Shown here one piece after another: positions 9,464-21,560 of a stretch of DNA of 64,000 bases; positions within the stretch are counted from its first letter, which is position 1; each line of letters opens with the position of its first letter. A model generated the notes under the pieces. The model worked only from the letters and a program-made list of their open reading frames with translations, searched no databases and was not told where the DNA came from. Made by a program: the position numbers and the translations under genes. The stretch comes from Palleronia pontilimi (GTDB taxonomy: Bacteria > Pseudomonadota > Alphaproteobacteria > Rhodobacterales > Rhodobacteraceae). The stretch lies in the NCBI RefSeq assembly GCF_016412875.1, contig NZ_JAEKPD010000007.1, positions 124,001 through 188,000 on the forward strand. The letters run 5' to 3'.

Positions 9464-10636
9464 ATGTCGCCCTTGCCTCCGATCGACGAGATCGACCCAG
9501 ACAAGCTGAGCGTGGAAAGCTACCGCGCCGAATCCGTGCGACAGTTGACCAAGATCCGTCACCTGCTGGCGTTCCTGTCGCTGCTGGCCGCCACTCTGGC
9601 GTGCTTTTTCGCCAAGGACGTGCTGCTGCCGTTGATCCTGGGGGTGATGCTGGCGCTGACGCTCAGCCCGATCGTGCGCAGCGCCGGGCGGGTCGGCATC
9701 CCGGCGGCTCTGAGCGCGGCGGTGCTGGTCCTGGGGCTCGGGGTCGGCATCGTCATGGCGGGCTACGCGGCCAGCGGCCCGGTGGCGGGCTGGATGGAGC
9801 AGGCCCCGGAAATGGGCGACCGGCTGCGCGACAAGCTGCGCGGCGTCAGCGAATCCGTCGAAAAGGTGAAGGAAGCCAGCGCCGAGGTGGAAGAGATCGC
9901 CGACCAGACGGGCGATCTGCGGGTGCAGAAGGTGGCCATCCAGCAGCCCGGCATCCTGAACTCGGCCGTCAGCAACGCGGCCAGCGCGGTCACCACCCTG
10001 GCCGTCGCACTGGTCTTCGCGCTGTTCCTGCTGGCGTCGGGCGACATGTTCCGCGCCAAGCTGGTCGAGGTGATGCCGAAACTGTCGGACAAGAAACGCG
10101 CCCTGAAGATCATGTCGGGGGTCGAGCGCGCGATTTCGCGCTACCTGCTGACCATCACGCTGATCAATGCGGGGCTGGGCCTGGCGGTCTTCGCGCTGAT
10201 GGCGGCGGCGGGGCTGCCCAAACCCTATGTCTGGGGGCTTGTGGCCTTCGTGTTCAACTTCCTGCCGTTCCTGGGCGCCATCGCGGGCGTGATCCTGGTG
10301 GCGATGTTCTCGATCCTCAGCTTCGACACGCTGGGCCAGGCCACGATCCCGCCGCTGCTGTTCCTGGCGGCGACCAGCGTGGAAGGGCAGTTCGTGACCC
10401 CCGCCATCCTGGGCCGCAGGCTGGAGCTGAACACGGTGTCGGTCTTCGTCACGGTGGTGTTCTGGGGCTGGCTCTGGGGCATTCCGGGCGCGCTGATGGC
10501 GGTGCCGTTCCTGGTGATCGTCAAGGTGATCTGCGACAACCTGGACAGCCTGTCCACGCTGGGCCATTTCCTGGGCGCGTCCGACATGCGGGTGCGGGTG
10601 GACGAGCCGGTCGAGCCGGGGGTCAGGCCCGCCTGA
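9464..10636 (+). CDS. AI-2E family transporter (PerM-like permease)
   Basis: This polytopic inner-membrane protein of 390 residues belongs to the AI-2E/PerM family, whose members carry out varied export or ion-transport roles. About eight hydrophobic segments flank a soluble, charged and helical insertion at residues 110-165 (SVEKVKEASAEVEEIADQ), as expected for the family. A TTAGACT element at 9442-9448 lies 22 bases before the ATG and could be its -10 box. It follows the flavoprotein gene by 59 bp. The transported substrate cannot be inferred. Confidence 0.88.
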   Translation: MSPLPPIDEIDPDKLSVESYRAESVRQLTKIRHLLAFLSLLAATLACFFAKDVLLPLILGVMLALTLSPIVRSAGRVGIPAALSAAVLVLGLGVGIVMAGYAASGPVAGWMEQAPEMGDRLRDKLRGVSESVEKVKEASAEVEEIADQTGDLRVQKVAIQQPGILNSAVSNAASAVTTLAVALVFALFLLASGDMFRAKLVEVMPKLSDKKRALKIMSGVERAISRYLLTITLINAGLGLAVFALMAAAGLPKPYVWGLVAFVFNFLPFLGAIAGVILVAMFSILSFDTLGQATIPPLLFLAATSVEGQFVTPAILGRRLELNTVSVFVTVVFWGWLWGIPGALMAVPFLVIVKVICDNLDSLSTLGHFLGASDMRVRVDEPVEPGVRPA

Positions 10637-10642
10637 GCGCGC

Positions 10643-10671
10643 TTGCCGCCCGCCCTTCGCCTGCCTATAAG
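10643..10671 (+). promoter_or_regulatory. probable ileS promoter
   Basis: TTGCCG at 10643-10648 and TATAAG at 10666-10671 are separated by 17 bases, an almost ideal sigma70-type promoter for this GC-rich genome. Initiation about seven bases further, near 10678, would place the leader-peptide ATG (10681) within about three bases of the mRNA end. Confidence 0.7.
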
Positions 10672-10680
10672 GCGCGCAAC

Positions 10681-10728
10681 ATGGCCCATCTTTCGCTGAC
10701 CAGACGAATTATCCGCCCGGTTGTCTGA
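10681..10728 (+). CDS. candidate ileS leader peptide (15 residues, Ile-Ile)
   Basis: The 15-codon frame encodes MAHLSLTRRIIRPVV and stops at 10726-10728. It begins within a few bases of the predicted transcription start, so it would be translated as a nearly leaderless mRNA. Two consecutive isoleucine codons, ATT ATC at 10708-10713, come immediately before the left arm of a 14-bp hairpin, and the last codons lie inside that arm. It precedes the isoleucyl-tRNA synthetase gene, so this is the architecture of a ribosome-mediated attenuator. In Sinorhizobium the trpL leader is known to begin at its AUG, which is a precedent for the leaderless form. The peptide itself is inferred. Confidence 0.6.
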   Translation: MAHLSLTRRIIRPVV

Positions 10729-10748
10729 CATCGTGTCGGACGGCCGGG
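10716..10748 (+). terminator. 14-bp hairpin in the ileS leader, probable attenuator
   Basis: The left arm CCCGGTTGTCTGAC (10716-10729) pairs along its whole length with GTCGGACGGCCGGG (10735-10748), counting three G-U pairs, around a five-base loop. It is followed by ATTTCGG, a weak U tract. An alternative five-base pairing of CAGAC (10701-10705) with GTCTG (10723-10727) could compete with it. A ribosome stalled on the Ile codons would cover the left arm. Whether the stem terminates transcription or controls translation is not visible. Confidence 0.6.
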
Positions 10749-10821
10749 ATTTCGGCGCTTCGAGCCACGCTCGCGCCCCCTTCACCCCCGAAGACCTCCG
10801 ATTTGCAAGGGATCTTGCCCC

Positions 10822-13821
10822 ATGTGCGCCGATACGCCCGCCGACACTTCGCCCGACTACAAAGCCACGCTGAACCTGCCCAAGACCGATTTCCCCATGC
10901 GCGCGGGCCTGCCCAAGCGCGAGCCCGACTGGCTGGCCCGCTGGGACGCCATCGGCATCTACGACCGGCTGCGCGAGAAAGAGGGCCGCACCCCCTTCAC
11001 GCTGCATGATGGACCGCCCTACGCCAACGGGCACCTGCATATCGGGCATGGCCTCAACAAGACGATCAAGGACATGATCGTGCGCTCGCGCCAGATGATG
11101 GGGTTCGACGCGCGCTATATCCCCGGCTGGGACTGTCACGGCCTGCCCATCGAGTGGAAGATCGAAGAGAAATACCGCGCCAAGGGCCGCGACAAGGACG
11201 CCGTGGATGTCGTTGAATTCCGCCGCGAATGTCGCGAGTTCGCCGCCGGTTGGGTGGATATCCAGCGCGACGAGTTCAAGCGGCTGGGTATCACTGGCAA
11301 CTGGGCCGATCCCTATCTGACCATGGACTACCACGCGGAAGCGGTGATCGCGGCCGAGTTCCAGAAATTCCTGATGAACGGGACGCTGTATCAAGGCTCG
11401 AAGCCGGTCATGTGGTCGCCGGTGGAAAAGACCGCTTTGGCCGAGGCCGAGGTGGAATACCACGACCGCCAGGTGGACGCGATCTGGGTGAAGTTCCCGG
11501 TCGTCAACGCCACGTCGGCGGCCTATGACGCCGAGCTCGACATCGCGCACGAGGAAGGCACCGTCGAAGAGCGCGAGGCGGCGAACGCGGCCAACGCCCG
11601 GCGCGAGGCGCAGTTGCGCGCGGCCACGGTGGTGATCTGGACCACGACCCCCTGGACGATCCCGCAGAACCGGGCGATCTGCTTCGGCCCCGAGATTTCA
11701 TACGGGCTTTATGAGGTCACGGACACGCCCGACGAGTGCTGGGCGGCGAAGGGCGACACCTACCTGCTGGCCGATGCGCTGGCCGGGCAGGTGATGGAAG
11801 CGGCGCGGCTCGAGGACGGGATGTTCACCCGCCTGCGCGGCGTCCAGCCCGAGGAACTGCGCGAAGTGACCTGCGCGCATCCGCTGCGCGGGGCCGAGGG
11901 TGCGGCGGGCGAATGGGATTTCGACGTGCCGCTGCTGCCGGGCGATCACGTCACCGACGACGCGGGCACCGGCTTCGTGCACACGGCCCCCAGCCACGGC
12001 GACGACGACTTCGCCATCGGGCGCGCGCATGGCCTGCCGATGACCTACAATGTGCTGGACGATTCCAGCTACCGCGCCGACCTGCCGTTCTTCGCGGGCG
12101 AGCAGATCATCAGGCCCAACGGCAAGCCCGGCGGCGCCAACAAGGCGGTGATCGCCAAGCTGGTCGACACCGGCGCGCTGCTGGCCCGGTCGCGCATCAC
12201 CATCTCCGACGCGCATTCGTGGCGCTCGAAGGCGCCGGTGATCCGGCTGAACCGCCCGCAATGGTTCGCCGCCATCGACAAACCCGTGGGCGACGGGCAG
12301 GACACCTACGGCAAGACGATCCGGCAGCGCGCGCTGACCTCGATCGACGAGCTGGTGGAATGGACGCCCAAGCGCGGCCGCAACCGCCTGCACGCCATGA
12401 TCGAACAGCGCCCCGACTGGGTGCTGAGCCGCCAGCGCGCCTGGGGAGTGCCCATGACCTGCTTCGTGAAGGCGGGCGCGAAACTGGACGATTCCGACTT
12501 TCTGCTGCGCGATCCGGCCGTCAATGCCCGGATCATTGACGCTTTCGAACAAGAGGGCGCGGATGCCTGGTATGCCGACGGCGCCAAGGCGCGCTTCATC
12601 GGCGACGCCGCCAACCCCGACGACTACGAGCAGGTGTTCGACATCCTGGACGTGTGGTTCGATTCAGGCTCGACCCATGCCTTCGTGCTGCGCGACCGGC
12701 CCGACGGGACCGAGGACGGCATCGCCGACGTCTACATGGAAGGCACCGACCAGCACCGCGGCTGGTTCCATTCGTCGCTGTTGCAGGCCTGCGGGACCAT
12801 CGGGCGCGCGCCCTATCGCGCGGTCGTGACCCATGGCTTCACGCTGGACGAGAAGGGCATCAAGATGTCCAAGTCGCTGGGCAACACCATCGTGCCCGAC
12901 GAGGTCGTGAAGCAATACGGCGCCGACATCCTGCGGCTATGGGTGGCGCAGACCGACTATACCGCCGACCAGCGGATCGGCCCCGAGATCCTGAAGGGCG
13001 TGGCCGACAGCTACCGGCGGCTCCGCAACACCATGCGCTTCCTGCTGGGATCTCTGCCCGACGACGTGCCCGCGCTGCCGGACGAGCTGCCCGAGCTGGA
13101 ACGCTTGATCTTGCACCGCCTGCACGAGATCGACGGACAGGTGCGCGCGGCCTACACGGCCTACGATTTCCAGCGGGTCTGGCGCACGGTCTTCGACTTC
13201 GCCACGCTGGACCTGTCGGCCTTCTATTTCGACGTGCGCAAGGACGCGCTCTACTGCGACGCCGCGGACAGCCCGCGCCGCGTGGCCTGCGAGGCCGTGC
13301 TGGGCGAGATCTACCAGCGGCTGGTCACGTGGCTGGCGCCGATCCTGGTCTTCACCATGGAAGAGGTCTGGCTGGAGCGGTTCCCCGAGGACGGCAGCTC
13401 GGTCCACCTGCAGGACCTGCCCGACGCGCCGGCCGACTGGGCCGACACCGCGCTGGCCGAGCGGACGCACACCATGCGCGCGGCCCGCCGCGTGGTGCTG
13501 GGCGCGCTGGAGGAAGCGCGCCGCGACAAGACCATCGGATCCAGCCTGGAAGCCGCGCCGGTGGTGCATCTTTCCGGCAAGTTCGCCGATACGATCCGGG
13601 ATCCGGACCTGTTCGCGGATCTGTGCATCACGTCGCACGTGACCCTGACGACCGATCCCGCGCCGGGCGATGCGTTCACGCTGGACGACGTGCCGGGCGT
13701 GGCGGTGGTGTTCGCGCGGGCGCAGGGCGGCAAGTGCGCGCGGTGCTGGAAGGTGCTGCCGGACGTGGGCACCCATCGCCACGACGGCGTCTGCGGGCGC
13801 TGCGACAGCGCGCTGGGCTAG
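10822..13821 (+). CDS. ileS: isoleucyl-tRNA synthetase
   Basis: This class I synthetase charges tRNA-Ile and edits valine. At 999 residues it has the usual length for alphaproteobacteria. The HIGH motif is at residues 73-76 in NGHLHIGHG, the CP1 editing domain follows, and KMSKS is at 681-685. A C-terminal zinc-binding module CARCWKVLPDVG ... CGRCDSALG ends the protein. The start MCADTP is typical of the order. The site AAGGGA at 10807-10812 lies partly within a small hairpin (GCAAG-GGAT-CTTGC, 10805-10818), which could dampen initiation. The 144-base leader upstream appears to be an attenuator. Confidence 0.98.
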   Translation: MCADTPADTSPDYKATLNLPKTDFPMRAGLPKREPDWLARWDAIGIYDRLREKEGRTPFTLHDGPPYANGHLHIGHGLNKTIKDMIVRSRQMMGFDARYIPGWDCHGLPIEWKIEEKYRAKGRDKDAVDVVEFRRECREFAAGWVDIQRDEFKRLGITGNWADPYLTMDYHAEAVIAAEFQKFLMNGTLYQGSKPVMWSPVEKTALAEAEVEYHDRQVDAIWVKFPVVNATSAAYDAELDIAHEEGTVEEREAANAANARREAQLRAATVVIWTTTPWTIPQNRAICFGPEISYGLYEVTDTPDECWAAKGDTYLLADALAGQVMEAARLEDGMFTRLRGVQPEELREVTCAHPLRGAEGAAGEWDFDVPLLPGDHVTDDAGTGFVHTAPSHGDDDFAIGRAHGLPMTYNVLDDSSYRADLPFFAGEQIIRPNGKPGGANKAVIAKLVDTGALLARSRITISDAHSWRSKAPVIRLNRPQWFAAIDKPVGDGQDTYGKTIRQRALTSIDELVEWTPKRGRNRLHAMIEQRPDWVLSRQRAWGVPMTCFVKAGAKLDDSDFLLRDPAVNARIIDAFEQEGADAWYADGAKARFIGDAANPDDYEQVFDILDVWFDSGSTHAFVLRDRPDGTEDGIADVYMEGTDQHRGWFHSSLLQACGTIGRAPYRAVVTHGFTLDEKGIKMSKSLGNTIVPDEVVKQYGADILRLWVAQTDYTADQRIGPEILKGVADSYRRLRNTMRFLLGSLPDDVPALPDELPELERLILHRLHEIDGQVRAAYTAYDFQRVWRTVFDFATLDLSAFYFDVRKDALYCDAADSPRRVACEAVLGEIYQRLVTWLAPILVFTMEEVWLERFPEDGSSVHLQDLPDAPADWADTALAERTHTMRAARRVVLGALEEARRDKTIGSSLEAAPVVHLSGKFADTIRDPDLFADLCITSHVTLTTDPAPGDAFTLDDVPGVAVVFARAQGGKCARCWKVLPDVGTHRHDGVCGRCDSALG

Positions 13822-19461: not shown

Positions 19462-21516
19462 ATGGATACGCGGGACGCGGGGGCGGCCGTGGTCGCACCT
19501 GATGGTGCGTCCGCGTCGTCCGAAAAAGACGGGAGCATTGTGTCTTTGCGGTTGCTGGCCACCAGCGATCTGCATGGCCACGTGCGCGCCTTCGACTACG
19601 CCGCGGGCCGCCCGAAGCCGGGCCGGGGGCTGGAGGCCGCCGCCGAGCTTGTCGCACAACTCAGGCGCGAGGCCGCCAACAGCCTGCTCTTCGATGCGGG
19701 CGATTTCCTGTTCGGCTCGGAGTTGACGGATCCGGTGGGTGGGCCCGATGCGGACGCGCCCGCGGCGCAGGTCCAGCCGCATCCGATGGTCGCCGCGATG
19801 AACGCGCTCGATTTCGACGCGGTCGCGCTGGGCAATCACGATTTCGATTTCGGCACGGCCCCGCTGAGGGCGGCGCTGCGCGCGGCGCGGTTCCCGGTGC
19901 TGGCCTCGAACCTCTATACCATGCGCGATCCGGCATCGGGCGCCACGCTGTCGCAGCAGGCGGCGCTGCTGACCCGCAAGCTGACGGACCGGGCCGGCGC
20001 CAGCCACGTGGTGCGGATCGGCGTACTGGCCTTCCTGCCCCGCGCGCTGCTGTCCCAGACCGCGCAGCGATACCCCGACGTGGCCGACCTGGCCCTGTGC
20101 GAGGTGGCGCAGGTGGCGGCCCTGCGGGTGGCGCGGTTGCGGGCGCGGGGCGCCGACCTGGTGGTGGCGCTGTGCCACGACGGTCTGCGCGACAGGACCG
20201 CGTCGGAGGCGGGCGGGCCGCTTTGGCTGGCCCGGCACGGCGGGGTCGATGCCATCGTGATGGGCCACGAGCATGGCGTCTTCCCGCGCCCCCAGGCGCG
20301 CAGGCCGTGCGAAAGCCCGGTGGCGGGCGTGGATGCCGATGCGGGCCTTCTGGCGGGCGTGCCCGCGGTCATGCCGGGCAGCCAGGGCCAGCACGTGGGC
20401 CGGATCGACCTGGAGATCGCGCGCGATGCCGCCGGAAGCTGGCGGGTCGTGTCCCGCCACGTGGCCACGCTGAGCACCGCGGGCCTGGGCGGCCGACCCC
20501 ATCCCCCGGCCCGCGGCAGGGTCCTGCAGGACCTGACGGCCACCGCCCATGCGCGCGCCTGCGCCATCGCCGCCCGCCCCATCGCCAACCTGCCGCAATG
20601 CGCGTCCACCTATCTGGCGCGGCTGGGGCGCTGCCCGCTGACCATGCTGGTGGCGCGGGTCATGGCCCGGACCGTGGCCGAGCGGATGCCCGGCCACGCC
20701 TCGGCGCCGGTCATCGGCCTGGCCGCGCCGTTCCGCAGCGGCGGGCTGGGCGGGCCCGAGAATTTCGTGGCGATCCCCGAAGGACCGCTGAGCTTGGGCC
20801 ACCTGAACGACATCTTCCCCTTCCCCGACCGTATCTGCGCGGTCGAGGTCACCGGCGCCGAGCTGTGGGACTGGGTCGAGCGCACGGCCGCGGGCTTCCG
20901 CCGGATCGAGGCCCATGGCGGCCCGCAACCCCTGGTCGAGCCCGCGATGCCGGGGTCGGATTTTCACCTGAGCCCGGATCTGTCGATCACGCTGGACCTG
21001 TCCCGGCCCGCGCGGTTCACGCCCGCGGGTGCGGCGGTGCCCGGGCAGCCGGGGCGGGTGATCGACCTGGTGCTGCGCGGGCGGCGCGTGGCGCTCGACG
21101 GGCGATTCGTGCTGGCGCTGACCGAATACCGCGCGGGCGGGGGCGGCGCCTTTCCGGGCTGCGCGCCCGACCGGTTGCGGTGGACCAGCGAGATCTCGGT
21201 GCGTGCGGCGCTGGAACGCAGCGCGGGCGCCTGCATGTCCGGCGCGCTTTACGAGCCGGGCGTGAAACTGCACGTCCCCGAAGGCGCGGTGCCGCTTTTC
21301 ACCACCGGTCCGGGCGCCATCGGCGATGCCGCGGCCCTGCGCGCCGCGCGGCTCGAAGCGGTCTGGCCCGCGGGAAGCGACTGGCTGGAATGCCGCCTGA
21401 CCGGGGATGCGCCGCCCCTTGAATTCGGAAGCGCGGGGGCATATTTGAGCCCTCGAGAGGTTGGCGCGGGCAGGCACCTCGCCAACCCGGTCAGATCCGG
21501 AAGGAAGCAGCCGTAA
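19462..21516 (+). CDS. CpdB/UshA-like metallophosphoesterase (2',3'-cyclic nucleotide phosphodiesterase type)
   Basis: This 684-residue phosphoesterase has the calcineurin-like metal motifs SDLHGHV, DAGDFLFGSE, LGNHDFDFG, ALCHDG and MGHEHG, followed by a 5'-nucleotidase C-terminal domain (FPFPDRICAVEVTG; LTEYRAGGGGAFPG). This is the architecture of periplasmic 2',3'-cyclic nucleotide phosphodiesterase/3'-nucleotidase. Unusually, no signal peptide is visible: the first 30 residues are polar. The ATG at 19462 has a weak site, and a TTG at 19453 is in frame. Its last 64 bases are also the 5' part of the SRP RNA gene, so the C-terminal tail is probably not under protein-level selection. Confidence 0.85.
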   Translation: MDTRDAGAAVVAPDGASASSEKDGSIVSLRLLATSDLHGHVRAFDYAAGRPKPGRGLEAAAELVAQLRREAANSLLFDAGDFLFGSELTDPVGGPDADAPAAQVQPHPMVAAMNALDFDAVALGNHDFDFGTAPLRAALRAARFPVLASNLYTMRDPASGATLSQQAALLTRKLTDRAGASHVVRIGVLAFLPRALLSQTAQRYPDVADLALCEVAQVAALRVARLRARGADLVVALCHDGLRDRTASEAGGPLWLARHGGVDAIVMGHEHGVFPRPQARRPCESPVAGVDADAGLLAGVPAVMPGSQGQHVGRIDLEIARDAAGSWRVVSRHVATLSTAGLGGRPHPPARGRVLQDLTATAHARACAIAARPIANLPQCASTYLARLGRCPLTMLVARVMARTVAERMPGHASAPVIGLAAPFRSGGLGGPENFVAIPEGPLSLGHLNDIFPFPDRICAVEVTGAELWDWVERTAAGFRRIEAHGGPQPLVEPAMPGSDFHLSPDLSITLDLSRPARFTPAGAAVPGQPGRVIDLVLRGRRVALDGRFVLALTEYRAGGGGAFPGCAPDRLRWTSEISVRAALERSAGACMSGALYEPGVKLHVPEGAVPLFTTGPGAIGDAAALRAARLEAVWPAGSDWLECRLTGDAPPLEFGSAGAYLSPREVGAGRHLANPVRSGRKQP
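21419..21445 (+). promoter_or_regulatory. candidate ffs promoter inside the upstream coding sequence
   Basis: TTGAAT at 21419-21424 and CATATT at 21440-21445 are 15 bases apart. Initiation about seven bases later would fall at the predicted 5' end of the SRP RNA. Both hexamers lie within the last codons of the CpdB-like gene. Confidence 0.5.
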
Positions 21517-21550
21517 CGAGCCTCGCTTGGGTCGTTGTCCAGCCTCTCAC
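21453..21550 (+). ncRNA. ffs: signal recognition particle RNA (4.5S type)
   Basis: The universally conserved SRP domain IV sequence GGTCAGATCCGGAAGGAAGC is present at about 21489-21508. The ends pair: GAGAGGTTGG at 21455-21464 with CCAGCCTCTC at 21539-21548 (one G-U pair). Size is near 95 nt, as for small bacterial SRP RNAs. It binds Ffh and directs membrane-protein targeting through FtsY, whose gene is also in this window. A strong hairpin follows. Exact ends are estimated. Confidence 0.93.
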
Positions 21551-21560
21551 CTTCCGAAAG

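Follow-up and report, generated by a model that had tools for sequence, protein, structure and literature searches.

How might a bacterium of the family Rhodobacteraceae match its isoleucyl-tRNA synthetase gene, ileS, to the supply of charged tRNA-Ile? This question is raised by a stretch of 64,000 nucleotides (nt) of the Palleronia pontilimi genome (contig NZ_JAEKPD010000007.1, positions 124,001 to 188,000; hereafter the window), in which a short open reading frame (ORF) and two hairpins (HP1 and HP2) stand in front of ileS. We think it rather probable that this 5' leader is a ribosome-mediated isoleucine sensor, in which HP1, lying at the mRNA entrance of the ribosome, would make the wait at a single AUU codon track charged tRNA-Ile. 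Comparison with relatives shows a conserved frame, a fixed codon pair with fixed spacing, both hairpins and a link to isoleucine genes, and at the level of sequence these support the proposal. What we infer from them is that charging is the signal and that the ribosome pauses, together with the sign and the output of the response. The layout of the locus, in window positions, is as follows.

10643-10671 (+): putative promoter, read from the sequence; TTGCCG at 10643-10648, a 17-nt spacer and TATAAG at 10666-10671
10678-10680 (+): predicted transcript start, placed from the -10 position; the leader ATG follows after about 3 nt, so that the mRNA would be nearly leaderless
10681-10728 (+): leader ORF MAHLSLTRRIIRPVV, 15 codons, ATG at 10681, stop codon TGA inside HP1
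10705-10711 (+): core CGA-ATT-A (an Arg-Ile codon pair plus A), recognised from relatives
10716-10748 (+): HP1, a GC hairpin that begins at position 12 (C of CGA = 1), supported by covariation
10754-10777 (+): HP2, a second hairpin, GGCGC...GCGCC, with a GGYG/CRCC core in relatives
10778-10821 (+): C-rich stretch reaching ileS, seen in the sequence and in the composition of relatives
10822-13821 (+): ileS, isoleucyl-tRNA synthetase (TIGR00392, 752 bits, cut-off 621)

The first-pass annotation of this DNA had described promoter-like boxes, an ATG, a 15-codon ORF and a stop within the stem at 10716-10748 before ileS, and all of these are present in the sequence. A simple consensus scan of 10500-11000 detected no promoter and no terminator. 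The folding of 10678-10840 beats 200 of 200 dinucleotide shuffles (z -3.13). The observation is larger than first noted: a near-invariant CGAATTA-N4-CCCGG core and HP2 (10754-10777) had been missed. Two adjacent Ile codons had been taken as the key of the leader; the part that is fixed in relatives is CGA-AUU, followed by A-N4-CCCGG.

Of 80 named Rhodobacterales ileS loci, 77 carry the exact string CGAATTA-N4-CCCG, as do 54 of 58 loci from 60 genomes of the window's family. Neither sample was preselected for the core, and these two figures, together with 8 of 32 in a class survey given below, are those free of selection; the pattern searches fixed CGAATTA and CCCGR, so that core conservation in the sets obtained by them is by selection. 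The exceptions among the 80 were L039 (AGC-ATT-A), L040 (GTC-ATT-A) and L050 (CGA-ATA-A), with an Ile codon still in place, and those in the family sample were L128, L132, L134 and L137. In the 80 ileS genes CGA makes up 2.0% of the Arg codons and ATT 10.5% of the Ile codons, and at other places in the leaders Ile is encoded by a mixture (ATC 82, ATT 82, ATA 26). Because of this rarity and this mixed usage, the CGA and ATT codons themselves appear to be selected, and not merely the residues Arg-Ile. After Arg-Ile, Rhodobacteraceae have Ile, Thr, Ser, Met or Lys, encoded by a codon that begins with A (the tally of the base after AUU counts the loci L139-L150 twice). Typical leader peptides among the 80 loci are MTHRAAIIIRIISPAL and MSHRAAIIIRIISPAL. 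The peptides of relatives mostly end in PAL, which leaves no general role for the Val-Val pair once suggested as a second signal. Other amino acids in the same grammar were looked for by eye, and no codon but ATT recurred strongly between CGA and A among the matches listed for 100 Rhodobacteraceae genomes. A control search in the window's own genome gave seven core matches at no more than one mismatch, with the exact copy only at 10705-10711. In some families there is a variant core, CGAATTC-N4-CCCGG, with C at position 7 and the residues Arg-Ile-Arg (genomes G073, G206 and G093, locus L148).

The frame was analysed in three sets of rows: 126 from Rhodobacteraceae, 50 from other alphaproteobacterial ileS loci, and 47 in which the element precedes a small ACT-like gene. 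The Rhodobacteraceae set merges two samples, so its rows are not all independent, and the rows used in it for the frame, stop, U-tract, composition and HP2 counts are those with exact CGAATTA. An ATG in the frame of CGA, at most 66 nt upstream and with no intervening stop, was found in 124 of 126 Rhodobacteraceae, 48 of 50 other ileS and 46 of 47 ACT rows; the same test in the other two frames gave 4 and 14, 9 and 3, and 3 and 3 rows, respectively. The first stop in the CGA frame lies within HP1 in 121/126, 42/50 and 21/47 rows, while the other frames reach at most 13, 2 and 2. Among the residues before CGA, Ile accounts for 28.7% in Rhodobacteraceae and for 10.9% and 10.7% in the other two groups. 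The leader is thus a short ORF with Ile codons and a conserved frame before the putatively regulated gene, and its translation is predicted.

Ahead of the leader ATG, 115 of 124 Rhodobacteraceae, 34 of 48 other ileS and 17 of 46 ACT rows have a -10 box (at least four of six positions). Where a Rhodobacteraceae row has such a box, 6-7 nt usually separate its end from the ATG (90 of 115 rows); the window has a gap of 9 nt. This spacing in Rhodobacteraceae is as expected for a leaderless mRNA, judged from the predicted boxes. A low frequency of T at -7 is described for Alphaproteobacteria in the part of PMC8407463 consulted.

These counts also bear on the idea that CGAAUUA and HP1 form a protein-binding RNA element, for example for isoleucyl-tRNA synthetase itself, with an incidental frame. 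Such an element would account for CGAAUUA and CCCGG being fixed beyond the needs of the peptide, but the ATG, the frame, the promoter spacing and the stop are all kept in the CGA frame, and Ile codons are enriched upstream of the core. We regard this explanation as highly improbable.

Both hairpins were examined in an alignment of 67 selected Rhodobacteraceae rows, from which 17 of 84 non-redundant rows were left out, several for lacking HP2. HP1 and HP2 together have 58 double-change cells in it versus 20.3 when shuffled and 4-27 when slid, and 90.9% of the cells are paired versus 35-44% when slid. The HP2 core GGYG/CRCC occurs in 90 of 121 Rhodobacteraceae rows (5 of the 126 have no called HP1 end, and the folding test of the shared GGG used 119), where 3.5 are expected from shuffled sequence. 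The first such pair per row is C-G in 52 and U-A in 37, which means 89 compensated against 4 uncompensated cases. On both of these grounds the predicted HP2 is real in most Rhodobacteraceae. For HP1, the longest stem starts at position 12 in 58 of 80 CGAATT occurrences upstream of the named ileS loci, and its onset is 11 nt downstream of the first CGA nucleotide. It has 10-11 pairs with one bulge in Rhodobacteraceae and about 10 pairs in the other groups. A competing CAGAC/GTCTG pairing had also been pointed out in the window; CAGAC is found in 3 of 121 leaders, and this pairing can be set aside. The comparison of ileS 5' regions in Rhodobacterales bears out the earlier proposal of an Ile-sensing leader: the core, the start, the frame, the Ile enrichment, the stop in the stem and the covarying stem are conserved, and the element stands before other isoleucine genes in the class as well.

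The position of HP1 suggests how such a sensor may work. The mRNA channel extends 11 nt downstream of the first P-site nucleotide, and a stem-loop 11-12 nt downstream inhibits A-site tRNA binding, which is relieved at 13 nt, according to the portion of PMC7282821 available to us. RNA polymerase would start at or beside the AUG of the leader of about 15 codons, and a translating ribosome whose P site holds CGA and whose A site holds AUU would meet HP1 exactly at the mRNA entrance. There HP1 may retard the entry of Ile-tRNA, and the wait at the single AUU would become strongly dependent on charged tRNA-Ile. The rare CGA codon, which is read through an inosine pair, may add to the slow decoding. 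When Ile-tRNA is scarce, the ribosome would wait and HP1 would remain folded ahead of it; when Ile-tRNA is plentiful, the ribosome would enter HP1 and terminate at the internal UGA. The two states would lead to different ileS expression, most likely more when Ile-tRNA is scarce, as homeostasis would lead one to expect. HP2 may help to convert the states into transcription attenuation in most Rhodobacteraceae. A Rho-dependent or translational output is also possible, because the proposed overlap of HP1 and HP2 is close to that of shuffles, U runs after the second stems are few and the following tract is C-rich.

The element is not limited to ileS. The pattern CGAATTANNNNCCCGR-N(6,36)-YCGGG was found in 110 of 385 alphaproteobacterial genomes, with at most three matches per genome, and a reversed control pattern gave 4 matches. 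A second search, which reached beyond the class, was positive in 14 of 15 genomes of the window's family and in 33 of 71 genomes that belong to other families in the class. Among genomes labelled as of the same phylum but another class, it matched 3 of 213 and the control gave 1, which is chance level, and no isoleucine gene was recognised downstream of the three. We grouped the 112 sites, in 110 loci, by clustering of the downstream ORFs: 50 stand before ileS, 47 before the family of small ACT-like genes and 15 before others. The loci L167, L168 and L206, which have an ACT-like ORF and ileS, were counted under ileS, and at least five of the 15 others (L162, L165, L208, L235, L257) look intragenic and accidental by eye. 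In addition, 16 further sites chosen from the listings comprised 10 before ileS, 2 before a P-loop kinase gene and 4 without a recognised isoleucine gene.

The small ACT-like protein had no Pfam or NCBIfam match above cut-off in the 13 members scanned, and its weak matches are mainly acetolactate synthase small subunits. The predicted structure of one member (predicted local distance difference test, pLDDT, 89.5) matches ACT domains, with IlvN among the best (5ypp), and an ACT fold is predicted for the protein on this basis. The ACT gene has a citramalate synthase piece behind it in L159 and L160 (in L159 on a truncated ORF that scores 437 bits with TIGR00977, just under cut-off); what comes after it is a threonine ammonia-lyase piece in L227 and ileS in L167. 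The P-loop kinase gene follows the element at L288 and L289 (genomes G023 and G018, both of the window's family), and relatives of it follow the element at L197, L231, L251 and L252. The kinase belongs to AAA_33 (PF13671) in the one scanned, and L288, L289, L231, L251 and L252 have in-frame leader ORFs such as MKTHMPVPMIRITRPA.

Three side observations belong to this survey. The ACT-domain family follows the element at L158, L159, L166, L219, L227 and others. Upstream of an ACT-like gene at L250 and L253 (G319, G221) the element is present twice, with a distance of about 180-200 nt, and G091 has such a pair also. At L177-L180 the element is upstream of a conserved ORF, for which the one example scanned had no Pfam match.

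We put forward only tentatively, and could well be mistaken in it, the wider proposal that there is a class-wide isoleucine regulon under a one-codon charging sensor. In it the P-site CGA and a hairpin competing with Ile-tRNA would make AUU the gauge, and the module would recur in front of ileS, of ACT-domain genes with links to citramalate synthase or threonine dehydratase, and of the P-loop kinase gene. If true, a single codon would report tRNA charging by way of a hairpin at the ribosome entrance, and an isoleucine leader family would extend across Alphaproteobacteria and tie the ACT-domain protein and the kinase to isoleucine control.

Several findings weigh against the isoleucine sensor. 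A survey of ileS upstream regions in the class, with one genome per family, found the exact core in 8 of 32 and a variant in two (L140, L148); about 14 of the 22 genomes without core are no larger than 2.5 Mb, and some genomes that lack the core before ileS carry it elsewhere (G098, G091). Charging alone does not explain why the A after AUU and the CCCGG are fixed. There is no stop inside HP1 in 26 of 47 ACT leaders, and 31 of 121 Rhodobacteraceae rows lack the HP2 core. In the 67-row alignment the number of base pairs with double changes (7) is not above that of the slid controls (4-9). In the 40 nt after HP1 the mean z is 0.09 in other ileS rows (no excess structure), 0.88 in ACT rows (less than shuffles) and -0.34 in Rhodobacteraceae. 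HP1 and HP2 covary, but the pairing of the shared GGG, by which they would exclude each other, is barely above shuffles (116/119 versus 108.9, 44/50 versus 40.5 and 42/43 versus 38.0). Finally, few rows have 5 or more T among the 9 nt that follow HP1: 5 of 121 Rhodobacteraceae, 8 of 50 other ileS and 2 of 47 ACT rows.

The last count also bears on another explanation, in which HP1 itself is a transcription terminator and a ribosome stalled at the Ile codons covers its left arm, causing read-through. A few loci would suit it, with a T run after HP1 and no HP2 core (for example L003, L021 and L111), but rare U tracts rule out HP1 as a general intrinsic terminator for most loci. The geometry is also unfavourable: with AUU in the A site HP1 begins outside the channel, and a ribosome at the UGA would, by the same geometry, equally cover the left arm. 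We consider this explanation unlikely. The attenuator proposed at first is therefore retained in part. Its Ile-sensing leader is well supported by the comparison; its stalled ribosome that blocks a terminator stem is not supported, since a ribosome whose A site holds AUU would have the stem just beyond its mRNA channel and should leave HP1 folded. A U run after the second stem was seen in 6 of 115 Rhodobacteraceae rows.

It is also conceivable that the leader controls the translation of the next gene, by re-initiation, coupling or occlusion, and not transcription. In the ACT group the commonest stops after +24 are at 90-105, past the start region of the gene, and shuffles are more structured than the sequence that follows HP1. 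However, open frames are common in such GC-rich DNA, and ileS begins 93 nt after the leader stop in the window, with comparable distances usual in relatives, which is long for simple coupling. This explanation has, in our judgement, little chance of being right. The low structure after HP1 also makes a second structure unlikely in the ACT loci.

Two further candidate features were rejected. A switch of the HP1 GGG into an extended HP2 was initially counted in 90 of 121 rows; with a longer mask and shuffled downstream sequence it became the 116 of 119 rows given above, against 108.9 expected. Pairing of CGAAT with ATTCG around HP1 was not kept as a general feature, with a strong excess of RTTCG in the ACT group and a weaker one in the ileS rows: within 45 nt after HP1 it occurs in 23 of 47 ACT rows (4.9 expected) and in 10 of 50 ileS rows (4.4 expected). 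The RTTCG of the ACT group is often 9-13 nt past HP1 and may signal a polymerase pause or pair with CGAAT.

The upstream neighbour of the leader, at 9464-10636, is an AI-2E family transporter gene (PF01594). At the curated score no Rfam family, T-box included, was found on the leader; the window has only a bacterial small signal recognition particle RNA elsewhere (21455-21551, +, 50.7 bits), and 20 relative loci have none. When the threshold was relaxed to E<=10, one chance-level match to a CRISPR repeat was obtained.

Among known systems, translation of the trpL leader in trp-type attenuators reads tRNA charging. The leaderless trpL (peTrpL) of Sinorhizobium meliloti, as given in the sections of PMC10117765 at hand, has a leaderless leader ORF, as is predicted, or nearly so, for ileS. 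What sets the ileS leader apart is a single fixed codon pair whose distance to one hairpin is fixed as well, and no canonical terminator was recognised in most loci. In Caulobacter crescentus, a leader coding sequence (CDS) of ileS, CCNA_03934, was named and served as a negative control, and the portion of that paper available describes no motif, regulation or family for it (PMC4117421). It shares with the ileS leader of the window its place ahead of ileS, in a member of the same class, and is presumably one of the CDSs mapped in that study. Our literature search, covering titles and abstract openings, found among the matches listed no ileS attenuator described in Alphaproteobacteria; a 2010 study of attenuation of synthetase operons by Lopatovskaya and co-workers, outside this comparison, may hold related predictions. 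The available parts of PMC4833913, PMC10117765 and PMC2965389 do not mention ileS.

The nearest described element that we found is uORFC-8-2, the cysS leader of Rhodobacterales, for which ribosome-mediated attenuation was proposed (PMC8632094, in the part consulted). The two have in common the order, a short ORF with cognate codons before an aminoacyl-tRNA synthetase gene, and two stems. According to the same part, the first stem of uORFC-8-2 contains a conserved tandem of two Cys codons, a U run stands at its end, and the element is reported only before cysS in Rhodobacterales, whereas the ileS leader has one fixed AUU ahead of the stem, rarely has U runs, is class-wide and precedes several isoleucine-related genes. 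The main text of PMC8632094 has no mention of isoleucyl, ilvA or ileS. The defining terminator of a classical attenuator was tested and not found in general, in the window scan and in the rows after HP1 and the second stem, and for this reason the ileS leader is not placed there. From its sequence it looks as if it were an apparently new form of ribosome-mediated leader regulation, attenuator-like and in general without a classical terminator.

The spacing of HP1 fits that of the pausing stem-loops of the dnaX and human immunodeficiency virus (HIV) frameshift type, and by this analogy we infer that it may slow A-site tRNA binding. In those systems the stem is likewise 11-12 nt downstream of the first P-site nucleotide, and 11-12 pairs are reported as best in the consulted parts of PMC7282821 and PMC8861025. 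The ileS leader differs from them in that no slippery sequence was recognised and the pause codon is an isoleucine codon before isoleucine genes. If the isoleucine sensor is true, the hindrance of A-site tRNA binding by stem-loops, known from published work, would acquire a natural role in regulation.

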